From positions 17,003,501 to 17,067,500 of the forward strand of contig NC_067287.1 of NCBI RefSeq assembly GCF_020740795.1: DNA of 64,000 nt, written 5' to 3'. The notes under the pieces are model-generated. The model did no database searches, was not told where the DNA came from, and saw only the letters and a program-made list of their open reading frames with translations. The stretch comes from Apus apus (taxonomy: Eukaryota > Chordata > Aves > Apodiformes > Apodidae). Position 1 is the stretch's first letter; each line of letters opens with the position of its first letter. Positions 13,180 to 41,741 of this stretch are shown here, in pieces. The translations under genes were made by a program, and so were the position numbers.

Positions 13180-14437
13180 GGTCACTGCCTGCGATCCCCC
13201 CCGCTTCTCGCAGACGGGCCGTGGGGCGGTGCGGAGCCCAGTGTGCGGCACAGAGCGGTGTGGGGGTCAGAAATGACTCTGGGGGAGCCCAGCTCGGGCG
13301 CACAGCGGGGGCTGTGGGGAAAGGCGCGGCGGGCACGGGGGTTGGGTGGCGGTGCTGCTGCCCCCTCGGCTCCGGGACACCGGGGAGCACGGGGAGGGGG
13401 GACGCGGGTAGGTGCACCCCCGGAGCCCCGTCTTCAGCCCCGCTTCGGTGGCCTGCTCGGAGCCGGGGAGCGGGACCGACGGATCTAGGCGCCCGCTGAC
13501 TCGGGGCGCGGCGGGCCGTGGCAGGGAGGCAGTTAACGGCCAGGGAGCCGCCGAGGCAGGAGGAGTCCGCAAGCGGGCGAGCAGGAGGGGGCCGCCGGGC
13601 GAGCTGCCCGCAGGCTGCCCGCCCCCGCCGAGCCGCGCCGCGCCGAGCCGCGCTCTGCCCCGGGGCGCACGGGCCGGCGGGGCACGGCGGGGCCGGGCGG
13701 CGACCGCGGTGGCTGCGGCGGTGGGGGACAAGCTCCGTGCCCCGCCCGCCTCGGCTCGGCACGACTCGGCACGGCGCGGAGCAGCGCGGTTCAGCAACGC
13801 ACGGCTCGGCATCGCACGGCGGGGAGCGTAGCAGCGCGGTTCGGTCTCGGCACGGGCTCGACACAGCACGGCTTGGAACGGCTCCGGCAGCTCCCGAGCC
13901 ATTCAAACAAGTGGCTCCGGCAGCACTTTCGGACCCGGGGCTGGGGAGAGGGCGCAGCCCGGCTCCCTGCCCCGGAGGCGCCGGGCCCTTCACACTGCTT
14001 CTTTTCTCTGGCGCTCGCTCTTTATTTGACGATGAAATAATGTTGACATGTCTTGAATTATTAAGTATTCCCTGGATTTTATTAGCACATGATGCTTAAA
14101 TGCTGCCTGTATCTGCTGGGGTCTTAACCAGAGAGGAGCGAAGGAGAGAGGCAGAGAGACAGAGCGAGGGAGAGGAGAGAGGGGGGTTTTTGACAGCTGT
14201 ATTTGTGCTGATAAGCGAAGGCACACGGAGACGATCGACTAGTGAGACAAGAGGGAAGCGGCGGCTCGGAGCTGCTGAGAGGGGCTGCGCTTCCCTCTCG
14301 AGACGGCTCGGCCCTCCTGGCGCCGTGCTGGGGTTTGGGGGAGACCCGAGCCCCCTCCCAGAGCCTGGCCGGGCTCTCAGCTGGTGCCCGTGCCAGGGGG
14401 CAGCTCGCTGGCTGGGCACGCCAGACACGCGGGGCAG
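13180..14437 (+). promoter_or_regulatory. ASIC4: ASIC4 exon 1a CpG island, promoter and 5' UTR
   Basis: Very CpG-dense from about 13200 to 13980 (GGCTCGGCACGG-type sequence), then a striking AT-rich stretch (about 14010-14110, ATGAAATAATG, TTGAATTATTAAG, TTTTATTAGCAC) immediately upstream of a purine-rich GAGAGGAGAG leader and exon 1a. No canonical TATA box is positioned with certainty. The AT-rich strip inside a CpG island resembles a conserved core-promoter/enhancer element. The start site was not determined. Confidence 0.65.
13755..13890. repeat. GC-rich imperfect direct repeat in the ASIC4 CpG island
   Basis: The word AGCAGCGCGGTTC occurs twice about 53 bp apart, each time followed by GGCTCGGCA/GCACGG-type sequence, with further CTCGGCACG copies on both sides. 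A short tandem duplication within the promoter island. Confidence 0.55.
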
Positions 14438-15013
14438 ATGCCGATTGAAATCGTGTGTAAAATCAAATTTGCCGAGGAGGATGAGAAGCAGAAGGAGAAA
14501 GAAGAAGGGGATAAGGAGAGCCTGATCGAGGAGCCCGCCCGGCCCCGCTCCCGGGACCTGGCTGCCTTTGCCAGCGCCAGCACCCTGCATGGCCTGGGAC
14601 ACATATGCCAGTCAGGGCGTCTGGGCGTGCGCCAGACCCTCTGGGCATTTGCTTTTGTGGCCTCGCTCGCCTTCTTTCTTTACCAGGCGGCCAAGTCTGC
14701 TCTGCTTTACCTGGAGCACCCCCACGTCATGGCCCTGGACGAGGAGGCCATTCATGAGATGGTCTTCCCCGCCATCACCATCTGCAACATCAACCGCTAC
14801 CGCCACTCAGCACTTACTGATGCCGACATCTTTCACTTGGCCAACATGACTGGGCTGCCCCCCAAGGACCGGGATGGCCACAAGGCCACAGACCTGCTCT
14901 ACCCTGACCCCGACATGGCTGACATTGTCAACCGCACCGGCCACCAGCTTGACGACATGCTCAAGAGCTGCAACTTCAGTGGCGAGAACTGCTCCTCTCG
15001 TGATTTCACTGTG
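14438..15013 (+). CDS. ASIC4: ASIC4 exon 1a (canonical first coding exon)
   Basis: Encodes residues 1-192: cytosolic N-terminus, the HG gating motif (STLHGLGH, H51-G52), TM1 (about 67-88, [16 protein letters not shown]) and the first third of the ectodomain, including [10 protein letters not shown] and [17 protein letters not shown]. Potential N-glycosylation sites are at N136, N165, N179 and N184. The start is fixed by the family's conserved MPIEIV. The frame stays open upstream but offers no earlier ATG, only GTG. The donor is GTG|GTGAGT at 15014, phase 0, matching the ASIC1/ASIC2 first-exon boundary just before VYTRYGKC. The next coding exon for this isoform is 23.6 kb downstream. Confidence 0.96.
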
Positions 15014-36000: not shown

Positions 36001-39000
36001 GTGTCCCAGGGATGGTGCAGGGACACACAGGCTGAGGGTGACATCTCAGCACGGGGTGGGGTGACCCACTGGCCTGGTCCCAACGGTGTAGAAAGGAGGC
36101 AGCCCGCAGCAGTGCTCCTGCTCACGACGGATTTTTGCCATGGTGGGAATGATGCCAGGACCGATGACAACTCTGGGATGTGGGGTCACGTGGGTGGTGA
36201 GGGCTGCAGTGCCTCGGGGGTTCCCTCCCCATGGGGATCGTCCTTTCCTAGGGCCAACGGGTGCCGGGGACAGAGGGTGCACCCTGAGAAGTGCAGAAGT
36301 GGGACCCTGCTGCCCTCTGCTGGACCCCGGCACCCCGCTACGCCGGCTCGCCGGATCTCGGCAGCCGCCGGGATCCGGGGTGCAGGGGTAGGGGAGTGCC
36401 GGGGTCTGGCAGGGTGGGAGGGAAGTGCTCTACCTCTCCTGGGCGTCAGAGATGCTGCCCGCTTCCTCTGCTCACCTCCCTCCGTGCCCATCCCTTTTCC
36501 TGAGGACAAACCCCGTTCCTGACCTGCTTGGCATCCTCCAGCGCCTGTCACCAAGCTGCCGGCTTGGATCCTGGACAGGTCCTTGGGATGGTCACAGAGT
36601 CACACCTTGCTCAGGAAGCAAGGCCGACAGCACGGATGGTGCTGGGAGTCACTACTGAGGCGAGCAGGAGCTCCTTTCTTTCTTCTTCATCCTTTCATGG
36701 CTGCCCTCCTCCCATGGAGCAGCAGGGATGCTGCCCTTCACGGGAGGCAGGGCTTGTCCCAAGGCTGTGGGCCCCCCCGAGGGTCTGCCCGCACCTTGGC
36801 AGGGCTGGTGCTGAAGACGGGTGCCTGGGATCGGTGGCAGCAGGAGATGAGAGGCTGCTGGGGAGCACAGTGCTGAGCTTTGAAGGCACCCTGACAGGCT
36901 GTCGGGCCCCGCCAGCCGTGCTGACAGCCTAGTGCACAGACACCACCCCTCCCTCTCTCCCCCAGTGCCACGCTCTGATCACAGCCTCGGAGTCACTTCA
37001 AAGCACCCGCCAGGCTCAGGTGGGCTCCCACGCACCCTCCCGCCCCACTGCTCTATTCCTCTTGCCCCACGGCCCCATTTCTCCTGCCCCACAGGGCCCA
37101 TATCTGCTGGGATCCCCAGCTCCAGGGTGAAAGATACAGGATACAGCATTGGGGACCAAGGTACACATATGATCCCAAAAAGTGCTGGTAGGAGGCAGTG
37201 GTCCCCCAGGCCTGGCACTGTTATGACTCAGTGGGGCAGGACCCCCAGCCTCAGAGCAGCTGTGACTGGAGTCTCTGGGATTTCAGGCAGGGATCCAAGG
37301 GAGGCTGCAGTGCCAGGACAAGAGACAATGGGGACCAGCTGGGGTACAGCATCCCCAGGGAGAGGGCTCACACAGCATGGCTGGGACAGGGTATCACCAT
37401 CCAGACACAGGTGCCCACCATGCACTGGGCACTGGGTGCTGTCAGGTCACCCTGCCTGGAGTAACGGAACATCTCCCCTCCATCCCAGCCTGGCTCAGGG
37501 AGGAATTTTCCATTCCTGAATGGAGGTTGGGGGAAGGCGTGTGTTTGCAGCAGCCCCCTTCTCTCCCTCCCCTCGCCCGTCACCATCTCGGAAAGGCGCC
37601 TGCCACATTCATCTCCAGAGAGGTGCAGAGCAAAAGCCTCCCAGAAGGAAGAGCTACCTGAAACGGACCAGGGACCCCGGGCAGCCTTAGGGGCAGCCTG
37701 CACCCCATTTTCCAGAGAAGCAACCCTGCTTGCAGCTATGCCGCTGTCCTTTGCCTGCTGCCAGGACAGGGAAGCCCTGGCAAAGGCTCAGGATGGTGAC
37801 GTTGCCCAGCTCGCCGTCGGCATCCTGCGAGCCACCAGGATCCCAGGGCTGCACTACATGTGCACCCGGCCACAGTCACGCCTGCGCTGCCTGCTCTGGA
37901 TCCTGGCCTTCCTGGCCTCTGTGGGGCTGCTGGCTACCAGTGCCACCGACCGCCTGCACCACCTGCTCTCGCGCCCCGTGCACACCCGGGCTCGCCTCAC
38001 CTGGGCCCCCCAGCTCCGCTTCCCAGCCGTCACCCTCTGCAACCCCAACCGGGCACGCTTCCTGCACCTCACCAAACCTGACCTCTACTCGGTGGGGCAG
38101 TGGCTGGGGCTGGCCCAGGAGAACCATTCGCTGGTGCCTGAGATGCTGGCTGTGCTGGGGGAGGACCAGCGCGCCTGGCTGACCCGTCTCGCCAACTACT
38201 CGCGCTTCTTGCCGCCCCGCCACTCTGAGCGCACCATGCAGAGCTTCTTCCACCGCCTGGGCCACCAGATCGAGGACATGCTGGTGGAGTGCCGCTTTCA
38301 GGGAGAGCGCTGTGGCCCCCAGCACTTCGCCTCTGTGAGTCCTCTCTTGGCAGGGGCAGGACAGCCCCATGGGTGCTGGGAGTGATGATCCATCTCCCCC
38401 CAGCAAGGGCAGAGGGGTGGCAGCATGAGGGGAGGGCTTGACGAGCCTTCCCAAGGACCATGCAAGACTGGTCCCCCCTTTAGCACCCCCATGGGATCTA
38501 AACCTGCTTGTGGAATGCCCTGACAGATCACTGCCTCCATCCTCACCTCCCGCCTTTCTCCATCCCCAGGTCTACACACGCTATGGTAAGTGCTACACTT
38601 TCAATGGGGACCGGAGGAACCCACGAGTGACTCGCCAGGGCGGCATGGGCAATGGGCTGGAGATCATGCTGGACATCCAGCAGGAAGAGTACCTGCCCAT
38701 CTGGAGAGAGACCAGTAAGTGGGACCATGGGGCAGACAGGGCATGGGCAAGGGGTGCTGGGAAGGAGGGCTGCTGGGCCAGCAGGGCACCCCAGGGGAGC
38801 TATGGGGAAAGCAGGGCACTGGAGAGGTGCTGGGCCCCGGGGTGCAGGTGCTGGGTGGGTGCAGACACGTAGCCACTCTGTCCTTCTCCTGCAGATGAGA
38901 CATCATTCGAAGCTGGCATCCGAGTCCAGATCCACAGCCAAGATGAACCACCCTACATCCATCAGCTGGGCTTCGGTGTCTCACCTGGTTTCCAGACCTT

Positions 39001-41741
39001 TGTGTCCTGCCAGGAGCAGAGGGTAAGAAAGGATGACCCTGGGGAGGTTGCCCCTGGGGAGGTGCCCACGGGCACCCAGCCCAAAGCAGCCCTGCAGCCA
39101 TGTCCCTCTCGCCCTGGCAGCTCACCTACCTGCCACAGCCATGGGGGAACTGTCGGGCCAGCGTGCAGGGGGAGCAGACACTGCCCGGCTATGACACCTA
39201 CAGCATCGCTGCCTGTCGCCTGCAGTGTGAGAAGGAGGCCGTGGTGCAGAGCTGCCACTGCCGCATGGTCCACATGCCAGGTGAGGGGCACATGTGACAG
39301 CGTGGGAGAACCCTGCTGCCCTGACACTCCTGCTAGGCCTGTCCTGACCCCCTACAGCTTGCACCCAAAGATCACTCCTGCCCCATCCCTCTGCACTCCT
39401 GGACTACCCCTACCCCATCCCTCTGCACCCAAGTGTCCCTCCCACTCCAGCCCTCTGCACTAATGAGTCCCCTTGCCCTGTCCTTCTGCACCCAGGAACC
39501 ACTCCATCCTGTCTGCATGCTGGGTGAGCCCCTGTCCTACTCTTCTTACAGACCCTTCCCTATCTGCCTTGTACTCAGGGGCCCTCCCCCATCCAACCTG
39601 CACCCAAGGGCCACCTATCCCCATCCCCTCCACACCCAGCATCCACCCCCACCCCACACTGCCTTTAAAAGAACGAGTTCAGGGTGGGGGGCAGAAGCAG
39701 ACCAAACTCCCACCCCCCCAACCAGATGCTTCTCTGCAGGAAATGAGTCCATCTGCTCCCCCAATGTGTACATTGAGTGTGCTGACCACACGCTGGGTAG
39801 GTGCAGCAGTGGGTGGGCAGCTGGGGGCCAGCAGGGTGCCCCCGGGAAAGGGGCTGGGTGGGTGCAGCCATGCTGATGGGTGTGTGCCCCCAGATGCAGC
39901 GGTGGAGGACAGTCAGGAGCGCTGCAGCTGCCCCACGCCGTGCAACCTGACACGCTATGGCAAAGAGATCTCCATGGTGCGCATCCCCAACAAGGGCTCG
40001 GCGCGCTACCTGGCCCGCAAGTACAACAAGAACGAGACCTACATTCGGTGAGCCATCAGTGCCAGGGTTTGCCAGAGAGGTGGGCAGAGGGCTGGGGACT
40101 TGTGGGAGCCTCACCCCTCTCCAGGCAGTGTGCAGGGGGCAGGTCCAGACACGTGCGGTCCCTGCAGCATCTTCTGCCCACGGGTGACTGTTGCTAGAGC
40201 ATCCCCTTGACCCATCTGTGTCCTCCAAGTCCTTCTGCTGACATCTTCCCACCTCATGGTCTCTCCCAAACTGATACATGCCCCTCCCATGTCCCCACTG
40301 CACCAGCCTGAATAAGTTACGAGGGCCCTGGGAGCACCTGGGAACTGGGGGACAGGGTTGTGAGGTTTGGGGGCAGTGGGGGTAGGAGGGTTGGTGACCA
40401 GCCCTCCTTGTCAAGCACTATGGTGTCCCCACAGAGAGAACTTCCTGGTGCTGGACATCTTCTTTGAGGCGCTCAACTATGAAGCCATTGAGCAGAAGAA
40501 AGCCTACGACCTTGCCGGGCTTCTCGGTGACTCTCCCCACCCTTCCCTGGGACCAAAAGTGGGGTCCCAGCCCAGAAGGGTATAGGGCTGGTTGGGGAGG
40601 GACCGCATGGGGCAGAAGCTGGCCACAGCCTGGCTAAGGGGTGGCATGCTGCTGGCTGTGCCATCCCTTGCCACTTCTGCCCCTGTGACCACACTGTCTT
40701 CCTTGTCTGGCAGCCCTGGCACTGCTTACAGCCCTGCTGGCCCACCCTGGGCACCCAGCGGGCTGCATAGCAGCTCCCTCCCAGTGACCATCTCTCCTTC
40801 TTTCTCCTTAGGGGACATAGGGGGACAAATGGGCCTGTTCATCGGTGCCAGCATCCTCACCATCCTGGAGATCCTGGACTATGTCTACGAGGTGCACTGA
40901 GCCCTCAGGGTTGTGGCTCCATGATGGGAGTGGGGCTATTGCTCACAGCGGAGGAGCAGCGTGGGGACCAGGATCCCCAGGGAAGGGGTGCTGTGTGTGG
41001 CCACCCCAGAGGCTTACTTGCAGCCCCTACATTGGGGAACTCTCAGCAGGAGACAATGGGAAGAGGATGGGTTCCCCTGCACCCCTCAGTGGCCGGGGGA
41101 CTGGGGAGGGTGGGCAGTGGGCAGAGGTCCTGTCCCCACGGCAAGCAGGGGAGTGGGAGGTAGGTCTGTGCAGACCAGGGTGTGCACACATGGGGTTCTG
41201 CCTGCATGTGGGTTCAGAGCTGACCTTCCATCTGCCCCCAGGTGATCCGGGACAGGGTGAGCAGGGTCCTGCGCCGCTCCAAACCACCCCTGAAGAAGCC
41301 CTCGGGCAGCATTGCCACACTGGGACTGGAGGAGCTCAAGGACCAGGTACTCCCATGGGGGAGGGATGCCCAGGGGGCTGCAAGGACAGGGCCTGGGCAG
41401 CATCCATCCCCCACCCAAGGAGGAAGGGACACCATCCCAAGAGTGGGGGACAGCACAGATCCACATTTGGCAGCCTCAGGTTGCAGAGCTGGGGCAGCCC
41501 CAGGGTGGCAGGGAGCTGGGTGCCCCAGAGGGGCTGCTGGGAACAGGCTGTGCTAGGGGTCGGAGAGAGGCAGCAGGGTGCATGGGGTCTGCATCCGTCC
41601 CACTGACTGCCATCCCCACAGAGCCCCTGCGAGACACTGGGCCGGCATGTGGAGGGTGCCTACAACGCAGGCATCCTGCCCAACCACCACCACCGCCACC
41701 ACTACCCTCACCAGGCTGTCTTCGAGGACTTCGCCTGCTAG
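14438..41741 (+). CDS. ASIC4: Acid-sensing ion channel 4 (ASIC4), two alternative first exons
   Basis: DEG/ENaC-family channel subunit with two membrane segments and a large cysteine-rich ectodomain, acting at the plasma membrane of neurons. In mammals ASIC4 gives no proton current alone and lowers surface ASIC1a/ASIC3. Exon 1a (14438-15013) or 1b (37738-38334) joins shared exons 38570-38714, 38895-39022, 39121-39280, 39740-39796, 39894-40047, 40435-40526, 40812-40891, 41242-41346 and 41622-41741. All introns are GT-AG and all phases fit. Predicted proteins are 538 residues (1a, close to the roughly 540 of human) and 545 (1b). The N-terminus [15 protein letters not shown] and the C-terminus VFEDFAC identify ASIC4 specifically. 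The selectivity filter GAS lies in [17 protein letters not shown] (TM2). The C-tail has a His-rich stretch, [11 protein letters not shown]. Transcription is convergent with CHPF. Confidence 0.97.
17590..17720. promoter_or_regulatory. AT-rich intronic candidate enhancer
   Basis: Contains ACAATAAATAACTC, TTTAAGTAAGAG, GTAAATGATC and CTATTTAACGTCAC (a CRE half-site) in a GC-rich intron. Composition-based call. Confidence 0.25.
18815..18880. promoter_or_regulatory. Short AT-rich intronic block
   Basis: Contains CTTAATAAATGTCAC and TATTTTTACACTGGG. The AATAAA could in principle act as an intronic polyadenylation signal for a short transcript, but nothing else supports that. Confidence 0.18.
19545..19650. 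promoter_or_regulatory. AT-rich intronic candidate enhancer
   Basis: Runs of homeodomain-type cores: TTTAATGCAATTCG, CATTTAATTTTACAC, TTAATCCACTGAG, GCTAATTTATAC and AAAATAAATG. This is the densest such cluster in the first half of the intron. Composition-based call. Confidence 0.28.
20650..20790. promoter_or_regulatory. AT-rich intronic candidate enhancer with CpG-retaining flanks
   Basis: Contains GAGATCGGATCAC, TTCATAATTATATTTAATG, CTTATCTGGGTAATTTAATATC, TTAATAAGCC and TCCGATACG. A mixture of AT cores and unmutated CpG is typical of conserved vertebrate elements and unlike the CpG-poor intron around it. Confidence 0.3.
22240..22530. promoter_or_regulatory. AT-rich intronic candidate enhancer with MEF2-type site
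   Basis: About 290 bases with retained CpGs (AGACGG, AAGACGAC, GCGTCGAG, CCGTCGAC). TTATTTATAG at 22339-22348 is a perfect reverse MEF2 consensus, and CTATATAAAG lies near 22296. Several AT runs follow (AAAAAAATTAACAAG, ACAATAATTGTC). This is the longest and most convincing regulatory-looking block in the intron. Confidence 0.35.
24923..26010 (-). repeat. CR1 LINE, 3' portion, inserted in reverse orientation
   Basis: On the plus strand it begins with the reverse complement of the CR1 3' end (two ATTCTATG octamers at 24926-24940) and the usual GGTTGGAAGGGACCT sequence. On the minus strand it encodes the C-terminal half of CR1 reverse transcriptase: VTSGVS/PQGS-like, VLFNIFIND, a FADD-type box near 25775, then [20 protein letters not shown] within an intact 67-codon stretch (25264-25467). 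The 5' part is missing, as is usual for CR1, and the frame is broken upstream of 25467. Moderately young copy. Confidence 0.9.
27220..27246. repeat. Poly(A) run, 27 bases
   Basis: Uninterrupted A27 following GAGCTCTG. I cannot identify a retrocopied gene upstream of it or a matching target-site duplication, so it is listed as a mononucleotide repeat. Confidence 0.9.
28080..28310. promoter_or_regulatory. Candidate enhancer with POU octamer and tandem SOX/TCF sites
   Basis: ATGCAAAT (28231-28238) is the exact POU octamer. Six bases later comes ATCAAAGATCAAAG (28244-28257), two adjacent matches to WWCAAAG-type SOX and TCF/LEF sites. The rest of the block retains CpGs (AGCGCCGCGG, CTCCGGCGTTAAG) and has TTTAATCAGCC, ACAAATCCATTAGCC and GCTATTAACG. 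Motif quality and spacing are better than chance expectation for intron sequence. Confidence 0.4.
30037..30061. repeat. (GT)n microsatellite
   Basis: Twelve uninterrupted GT units followed by GAGTGT, directly upstream of the intronic CpG-rich block. Confidence 0.95.
30080..30440 (+). promoter_or_regulatory. Intronic CpG-rich block with AT-rich flank; possible alternative promoter or enhancer
   Basis: About 220 bases of CpG-dense sequence inside ASIC4 intron 1, followed by a block with CCGTAATGAGATGG, GCGAGATAAGG, CAGATTAAACGC, GGGATTAAGC and CTGCCTTTTTATC. An ATG at 30217 opens a 35-codon frame ending at 30324 (begins [13 protein letters not shown]). It may be chance. The layout could be an intronic promoter, an enhancer, or a short unannotated exon. 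Confidence 0.3.
31885..32090 (+). repeat. Ancient CR1 LINE remnant (CR1-L-like), forward orientation
   Basis: The conceptual reading resembles the C-terminal end of old amniote CR1 ORF2: an A-x-YKYIKG-like start (TTTATAAATACATCAAGG), then TREGRELF, a TNG motif, and a W-x-PxGAVG-like end reduced to CCTCAGGAGCAGTGGGAG. Strongly diverged with a broken frame. Family assignment from memory. Confidence 0.55.
32091..33985 (+). other. ASIC4: ASIC4 intron 1, unclassified part
   Basis: GC-rich sequence without recognisable exon, repeat or regulatory block. Confidence 0.5.
33986..34460 (-). mobile_element. Candidate solo LTR of an endogenous retrovirus, reverse orientation
   Basis: About 475 bases of sharply AT-rich sequence in a GC-rich intron. 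On the minus strand it starts TGTTGTGAAG and ends CGGTACCA, has a TATA-like TATATAAG in the middle and a terminal AGTAAAGAATGCC...GAGTTCTC-type segment like the R/U5 part of avian LTRs. No internal retroviral sequence adjoins it, so it looks like a solo LTR. No convincing flanking duplication was seen, which fits an old insertion. Family (ERVL- or ERVK-like) not resolved. Confidence 0.5.
34461..34660. other. AT-rich sequence flanking the candidate LTR
   Basis: Contains TAAACAATAGTCTATTG, an inverted repeat, and long AT runs (TTATATTAAATAATTC, TATTAAAATTAATATG). It may be a second old insertion next to the LTR or part of the same element. Not classifiable by eye. Confidence 0.35.
34661..37737 (+). 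other. ASIC4: ASIC4 intron 1, 3' part, and upstream region of exon 1b
   Basis: No exon other than 1b recognisable. It contains an AT-containing block near 35840-35960 (AAAACTAATATAAAAGC, CACAATAAACC) and a CpG-retaining block at 36300-36400 with a CTCF-type site. Sequence immediately before exon 1b has no TATA box and no strong CpG island, so any exon 1b promoter must be of another type or lie further upstream. Confidence 0.5.
36307..36323 (-). promoter_or_regulatory. CTCF-type binding site
   Basis: Read on the minus strand, CCAGCAGAGGGCAGCAG matches the core CTCF consensus CCA(C/G)(C/T)AG(A/G)(G/T)GGC(A/G)(G/C) at every position. It lies 1.4 kb upstream of ASIC4 exon 1b, in a CpG-retaining block that follows CpG-poor intron. 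Confidence 0.55.
37738..38334 (+). CDS. ASIC4: ASIC4 alternative first exon 1b, ASIC2b-like
   Basis: Open from ATG to donor TCT|GTGAGT (phase 0), 199 codons. Contains TM1 (about 51-72, [14 protein letters not shown]) and the first third of a DEG/ENaC ectodomain: HTR-x4-W-x2-[37 protein letters not shown] and [10 protein letters not shown]. These are the landmarks of the ASIC2b first exon as I recall it (HTR, QLPFPAVTVCNNN, GHWLGL, FLPPRHFE, RLGHQLEDML, ELCGPHNFSS), so it is closer to ASIC2b than to ASIC4 exon 1a. It splices in frame to VYTRYGKC in exon 2, 235 bases downstream. The position of the HG motif reads IPGLHYMC, with Pro36 for His. NHS129 and NYS153 are possible glycosylation sites; C7-C8 could be acylated. 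Real exon very likely; its expression is not shown here. Confidence 0.87.
38570..41741 (+). CDS. ASIC4: ASIC4 shared exons 2-10: ectodomain core, TM2, C-tail
   Basis: Exon 2 (38570-38714) starts [14 protein letters not shown] and ends in LPIWRET. Exons 3-4 carry [34 protein letters not shown] and the cysteine-rich [10 protein letters not shown]. Exon 5 (57 bases) has NESICSPN and the conserved ECADHTL. Exon 6 has [17 protein letters not shown]. Exon 7 has [19 protein letters not shown]. Exon 8 carries TM2 with the GAS filter. Exons 9-10 form the cytosolic tail. Sequence is highly conserved with mammalian ASIC4, apart from the segment after the exon 5/6 junction ([11 protein letters not shown]). 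The exon 8 donor is GTGCAC, weaker than all the others. Confidence 0.96.

Follow-up and report, generated by a model that had tools for sequence, protein, structure and literature searches.

How many beginnings the ASIC4 gene of a bird possesses, and how old they are, is the question raised by a 64,000-nucleotide stretch of the Apus apus genome (assembly GCF_020740795.1, contig NC_067287.1, positions 17,003,501 to 17,067,500 of the forward strand; hereafter the window, with features numbered from its first base). ASIC4 is the least understood of the ASICs, and descriptions of it, which are based on mammals, usually present it as a proton-insensitive subunit. An initial annotation of the window proposed that ASIC4 has two first exons, the canonical exon 1a and an alternative exon 1b close to exon 2. 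The role of 1b as an alternative to 1a stands, but the count does not, since we find three candidates, with the third (exon 1c) lying outside the window. We are confident, though short of certain, that 1b is a conserved alternative first exon of ASIC4, that it represents one of three ancestral tandem types, and that the subunit it would encode, ASIC4b, is probably modulatory.

The ASIC4 model was assembled exon by exon, with GT-AG signals and matching phases required at each junction. Exon 1b (37738..38334, plus strand, 199 codons; ASIC2b-like and of type II in the scheme given below) starts with an ATG at 37738, stays open to 38334 and ends in phase 0 at a GTGAGT donor (38335). The acceptor AG lies immediately before 38570, where exon 2 begins (38570..38714, plus strand; placed by the gene model and by homology, and common to all isoforms), so that the intervening intron (38335..38569, plus strand; GTGAGT ... 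CCCCAG) is 235 bases long. The canonical exon 1a (14438..15013, plus strand, 192 codons; ASIC1b-like, type I) ends 22.7 kb before the start of 1b. Both first exons join the VYTRYGKC sequence of exon 2 in frame, and the spliced proteins, 538 residues with 1a and 545 with 1b, are free of internal stops. The open exon with its ATG and phase 0 donor, both distances and both in-frame joins had been claimed before and are upheld by the translation and the gene model, as are four motifs attributed to 1b (HTR-x4-W-x2-QL, WLGL, FLPPRH and RLGHQ-x-EDML), all of which occur in its translation (P0001).

Open reading frame length and splice-site strength were dropped as evidence for 1b because neither is distinctive in this GC-rich window: 146 open reading frames of at least 120 residues are present, so an open frame by itself proves nothing, and 476 plus-strand GT sites score as well as the 1b donor against a simple consensus. 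What sets exon 1b apart from chance is homology, namely to Pfam, to PDB sequences and to 40 database proteins. On its own, exon 1b matches the Pfam ASC family (PF00858) with 70.1 bits (E 2.4e-19; curated cut-off 23.6), which marks it as part of a DEG/ENaC subunit and agrees with the DEG/ENaC landmarks previously noted in it, and it matches 15 PDB sequences, all of them ASICs (best E 7.5e-25). Residues that are invariant for DEG/ENaC proteins in a 33-row alignment are present in exon 1b, the window having been compared by eye. The His-Gly motif before the first transmembrane segment (TM1) is important in DEG/ENaC channels; in exon 1b the Gly is kept and the His is replaced by Pro, a departure outweighed by the ASC domain match. 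The remainder of the protein, referred to here as the tail, identifies the locus, as it shares 99% identity with a crane protein that carries the name ASIC4, and the downstream neighbors agree with this.

A protein database search with exon 1b returned 40 matching predicted proteins: 17 rows from 16 named bird species (tinamou, grouse and turkey among them), 10 rows from eight turtle species, one alligator, two lizards, one axolotl, two rows from the polypterid fish Erpetoichthys, and seven rows without a species name. The named bird rows share 74–94% identity with exon 1b over the part covered, apart from a fused Buteo model (46%) that carries only the end of 1b. Measured against the window, exon 1b is 80–90% identical in the six bird models compared (90% in crane), 58–64% in ten turtle, lizard and alligator models, 53% in axolotl and 49% in Erpetoichthys, and it is joined directly to the VYTRYGKC of exon 2 in 28 of the 40 models. 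Neither the 40 rows that match the window's exon 1b nor the 69 listed for the Erpetoichthys exon include one whose name gives it as ASIC4 of a mammal, frog or teleost; the protein search was word-limited and some rows are nameless, so this is not proof of loss. At the level of sequence, the anatomy of exon 1b confirms it as a genuine and long-conserved alternative first exon.

Exon 1c (C7:16982460-16983113, same strand as ASIC4) is an ASIC1a/2a-like candidate first exon, 218 codons long when counted from a plausible ATG. It lies about 21 kb upstream of the window, was one of nine matches of exon 1b in its own assembly, and ends in GTG followed by the donor GTGAGT, in phase 0, exactly like exon 1a. 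The layout of ASIC4 is thus 1c, 34.8 kb, 1a, 22.7 kb, 1b, 0.24 kb and exon 2. Pairwise identity among the three first exons is 26–36%, within the same fold family. We considered and rejected the possibility that 1c belongs to a separate ASIC gene: no ASIC tail exon was found between 1c and 1a, and two tail queries located at least three tails in the assembly, on C7, C26 and C29. A clean join of 1c to an ASIC4 tail is found in six of the 31 database rows matching 1c (hoatzin, Chamaea, alligator, Paroedura, Heteronotia and Podarcis), while in three rows (Junco, Aythya and Buteo) 1c is fused to parts of 1a or 1b, three have no tail, and the other 19 are ASIC1, ASIC3-like or lamprey proteins by name or sequence. 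Four aligned archosaur copies of 1c have an LG insert of two residues (reading GHQLDLGEML or nearly so) that is missing from the two lizard rows.

Each of the three exons resembles a different first exon among the ASIC loci of the same genome. By tblastn, 1c best matches the distal first exons of ASIC2 (46%) and ASIC1 (48%, for the first of two pieces), 1a is closest to the proximal first exon of ASIC1 (39% over 209 residues), and 1b is closest to the proximal first exon of ASIC2, the ASIC2b exon (47%), its best match elsewhere in the genome. We therefore use the names type III for 1c-like distal exons, type I for 1a-like exons and type II for 1b-like exons, and from database names we take these to be the ASIC1a/2a, ASIC1b and ASIC2b exons, respectively. 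In this genome, ASIC4 has its first exons in the order III-I-II ahead of exon 2, ASIC1 has III-I and ASIC2 has III-II, all subsets of a single III-I-II series. An intron interrupts the type III exon of ASIC1 (C29, pieces at about 1230.2 kb and 1231.6 kb); the ASIC2 exon of this type is whole, as is exon 1c of ASIC4.

Because 1a, 1b and 1c end at the same place and in the same phase, the choice of start exchanges the first ~187 residues of the subunit (matched ASIC1 chain numbering). The column of ASIC1a His73 holds His in none of 15 type II rows vs 19 of the 20 rows of types I and III, 1a and 1c included, and the column of Asp78 holds an acidic residue in none of the 15 vs 19 of the 20. In the window, exon 1b has Val at the first position and Arg at the second, while exon 1a carries both equivalents. 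PMC4967927 describes ASIC2b as a proton-insensitive modulatory subunit that is retained in the endoplasmic reticulum without a partner; given the ASIC2a N-terminus, TM1 and 17 further residues, it reached the surface and passed a small proton current, and with the N-terminus alone or with TM1 added it gave no current. A 24-residue stretch after TM1 that includes His73 decides the proton response of ASIC4, according to PMC6790391. Since type II exons lack the equivalent of the proton-gating His73, and that of Asp78 as well, ASIC4b would most likely resemble ASIC2b in being insensitive to protons and in modulating other ASICs within heteromers. This physiological reading draws on the residues and on chimaera experiments with ASIC2 and with other ASIC4 proteins.

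The alternative that ASIC4b is itself a channel, gated by protons or otherwise, and not modulatory, is a good deal less probable but deserves to be taken seriously. It shares its tail with the 1a form, and chicken, frog and coelacanth ASIC4 are proton-responsive, unlike that of rat, in a passage of PMC6790391 that leaves the chicken isoform unstated. The Val and Arg found in place of His73 and Asp78 speak against it, given that the non-gating ASIC2b likewise lacks both, as does the His-Gly motif, which reads Pro-Gly in every archosaur row that covers it. Over 41 rows of exon 1b, the motif is Pro-Gly in 18 (the window, birds, nameless rows and Alligator), His-Gly in 15 (turtles, lizards, axolotl and Erpetoichthys) and not covered in eight.

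Another possibility is that exon 1b, though intact, is an unused relic, retained by chance or, for example, as an enhancer, from which no protein is made. Several observations lean this way or otherwise count against our reading of 1b as a working first exon. The exon evolves faster than the tail (64% vs 91% identity in turtle; the tail retains 74% in Erpetoichthys), and 12 of the 40 models lack a direct join to exon 2, with four reading through the intron into exon 2, seven entering the intron and never getting to exon 2, and one containing a gap at the join. Exon 1b forms a gene of its own in two NCBI entries (Agelaius “ASIC2-like” and Cuculus “ASIC1-like”), and the homologues of 1b and 1c are all predictions, those of Junco, Aythya, Buteo and Crotalus being evidently fused. 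There is also no CpG island at 1b: with 400-base windows at GC >0.55 and an observed/expected CpG ratio >0.65, a CpG-rich region was found upstream of and overlapping exon 1a (13201..14600, unstranded) and none at exon 1b or 1c. Against a relic stand the preservation of exon and join point from polypterid fish to birds at 49–90% identity, the retention of the invariant DEG/ENaC residues, and the annotation of 1b in several lineages as an isoform spliced to exon 2. We consequently regard an unused relic as unlikely. The intron at 38335–38569 is read open into exon 2 in P0003, P0006, P0009 and P0011; in the window this frame meets a stop (open reading frame end 38385).

The flank of exon 1b is itself conserved. 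The nearest in-frame stop upstream lies at 37462, and the segment 37462..37737 (plus strand), identified by a Cuculus read-through match, is a probable 5′ untranslated region with proximal promoter. In the Cuculus model P0010, the part added by read-through aligns with the window at 37458–37583 (86% over 42 codons) and at 37594–37737 (58% over 48 codons), with E 4e-27. Conservation of these ~280 bases between birds, together with the lack of a CpG island at 1b, fits a separate promoter of restricted activity, from which exon 1b would be expressed.

To place the exon types, a first-exon tree of 35 rows combined 27 of 116 proteins, picked by eye so as to be complete and widely spread, with seven exons of the swift's own genome; the Crotalus protein entered as two separate exon parts, and database rows with long N-termini were trimmed to their last 200 residues. 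A repeat omitted five rows (one masked, one of odd composition, both halves of the fused Crotalus model, and Xenopus). For the tails, a tree of 28 rows was made from those 27 proteins and the window tail, leaving out the swift's own ASIC1 and ASIC2 tails; every ASIC2 row in it bears a type II exon. Type II exons separate from types I and III with support of 100/100 in both first-exon trees and comprise the ASIC2b exons, ASIC4-1b, one lamprey exon and one shark exon with an ASIC1 tail. This substantiates both the proposed likeness of 1b to ASIC2b and the suggestion that its exon type is old and common to other ASIC genes. ASIC4-1b forms a clade from Erpetoichthys to birds (98/92; 96/88 in the repeat). 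The type I clade unites ASIC1b, ASIC4-1a and ASIC3-like exons (98/94; 98/98), with ASIC1b and ASIC4-1a together at 93/88 (88/86), and the ASIC4-1c clade (100/99) falls near types III and I. Holding the five ASIC1 first exons together costs 142 log-likelihood (lnL) units. The tails, in turn, group by gene (ASIC4 100/100, ASIC2 100/100, ASIC1 97/90, ASIC3-like 91/88), with two lamprey rows together (94/90) and the shark protein P0077, which has a type II first exon, inside the ASIC1 clade.

These trees bear on whether exon 1b might be a later copy of ASIC2b exon 1 placed into ASIC4 by retrocopying, transposition or gene conversion. The ASIC2b exon being the best match of 1b elsewhere in the genome would suit such an origin, but the 1b rows, fish to bird, fall in a clade by themselves, and forcing bird 1b into one clade with the ASIC2b exon of the same genome is rejected (lnL −80, p 2.5e-4). 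A tree of ASIC first exons had been suggested in the initial annotation, with a recent ASIC2b copy as the outcome adverse to its claim, and it is this outcome that the test rejects. The trees are compatible with an older exchange between genes, close to the origin of the vertebrates; taken as a whole, a later copy is very improbable. Least credible of all is duplication of the extra exons within ASIC4 alone, with convergence toward ASIC2b and ASIC1a: the 26–36% identity and common fold family of the three exons would allow it, but a single clade of all ASIC4 first exons is refuted under the models used (lnL −115, p 1e-102; repeat lnL −100.5, p 3e-5).

First exons that group by type while tails group by gene are as expected if exon duplication preceded gene duplication, and the trees and the exon order in this genome agree in this respect. 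We lean toward the view that the vertebrate ASICs derive from a single ancestor in which exons of types III, I and II lay in tandem ahead of exon 2, an arrangement predating the duplications into ASIC1–4. Each daughter gene would have retained a subset, with losses leaving ASIC1a/1b, ASIC2a/2b and, in mammals, an ASIC3 and an ASIC4 with one start each, the loss from mammalian ASIC4 being presumed, whereas the ASIC4 of this bird would keep all three as 1c, 1a and 1b. Separate promoters might start the transcript at any of these, and the phase 0 donor of the exon used would be joined to exon 2. In this way the N-terminus, TM1, the strand after TM1 and the ectodomain that follows would be swapped while the rest of the subunit stays constant. 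The His73-bearing 1a and 1c forms could be proton-gated, and the 1b form would modulate its partners in heteromers.

Three points weaken this evolutionary account. Exon 1c is placed with type I at 83/72, and forcing it to type III costs little (lnL −0.4, p 0.18); a type II exon on ASIC1 is known from a single shark protein cluster (P0077); and exon order was looked at in this one genome. A position of the lamprey type II exon outside those of jawed vertebrates is neither shown nor rejected (p 0.205, repeat tree). The shark protein itself (Stegostoma ASIC1B isoform X2), with its ASIC1 tail and type II first exon, suggests that ASIC1 once had the third type. Type III-like exons occur on one of the fused Crotalus halves and on an eel protein whose tail is ASIC3-like, so ASIC3 probably once had types III and I.

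Among the closest known parallels is ASIC2 (ACCN1) with its ASIC2a and ASIC2b forms, which has the same kind of boundary in the same phase and whose proximal 2b exon is of type II and lacks the His73 equivalent, like exon 1b. It differs in having only types III and II here, in the distance of its 2b exon from exon 2 (~45 kb vs 235 bases for 1b), and in the Pro-Gly that archosaur 1b shows in the His-Gly motif. ASIC1 (ACCN2), with ASIC1a and ASIC1b, likewise uses alternative first exons at the same exon 2 boundary and shares type I between ASIC1b and ASIC4-1a; in contrast to ASIC4, it has only types III and I in this genome, while type II occurs on the ASIC1-tailed shark protein. Compared with the canonical 538-residue ASIC4, the 1b form is identical over exons 2–10 and 26–27% identical over the first third of the protein, and of these two the equivalents of His73 and Asp78 occur only in 1a.

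The initial annotation knew of no description of ASIC4 exon 1b. We too found none in open-licence papers, but the same exon 1b and exon 1c proteins are already in the databases as automatic NCBI/UniRef ASIC4 isoforms X1, X2 and X3 in several species. No description, classification or evolutionary reading of alternative ASIC4 first exons was found in the parts covered of the open-licence literature, which leaves subscription papers mostly outside, and the passages covered of PMC9949801, PMC8388743, PMC6679542, PMC5405051, PMC9612379, PMC6790391 and PMC4967927 describe none. Splice variants of ASIC1 and ASIC2 are named in three reviews (PMC6790391, PMC5405051 and PMC9612379), the last of which also lists human ASIC3 C-terminal variants and tabulates human ASIC4 as “isoform 1” with the kind of variant unstated. 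What appears to be new here is the candidate exon 1c. If sauropsids do make three ASIC4 subunits, birds and reptiles would be the animals in which to study what ASIC4 does, and exon type would be a sounder basis than the letters a and b for naming ASIC isoforms, with ASIC1b and ASIC4-1a as one type and ASIC2b and ASIC4b as another. The origin of ASIC diversity would also become testable, as exon gain before the gene duplications followed by loss, vs separate inventions in ASIC1 and ASIC2.

The spliced gene model places the rest of ASIC4 on the plus strand as exon 3 (38895..39022), exon 4 (39121..39280), exon 5 (39740..39796), exon 6 (39894..40047), exon 7 (40435..40526), exon 8 (40812..40891), exon 9 (41242..41346) and exon 10 with the stop (41622..41741). 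Downstream follow a chondroitin synthase-family gene, a TM198-like gene and an Ig-domain gene, which we take to be CHPF, TMEM198 and OBSL1 in a synteny that is likewise assumed. Rfam at gathering thresholds gave no match in the window.

Tail queries from ASIC4 and from an ASIC3-like snake protein returned only ASIC1, ASIC2 and ASIC4 in the assembly, a lower bound, so ASIC3 was not seen; it is reported in zebra finch and chicken (PMC6679542). Two ASIC3-like models of Phyllobates (P0067 and P0068) contain, by eye, ~100 reverse transcriptase-like residues between the first exon and exon 2, which may be an exonised retroelement or an annotation error. Two kinds of C-terminus, RTCYLVTRL (or a close variant) and SIREFAC, are found among the eel and frog ASIC3-like proteins P0057, P0058, P0061, P0064, P0067 and P0068, and both occur among two Phyllobates models seemingly from one contig, which points to alternative last exons.

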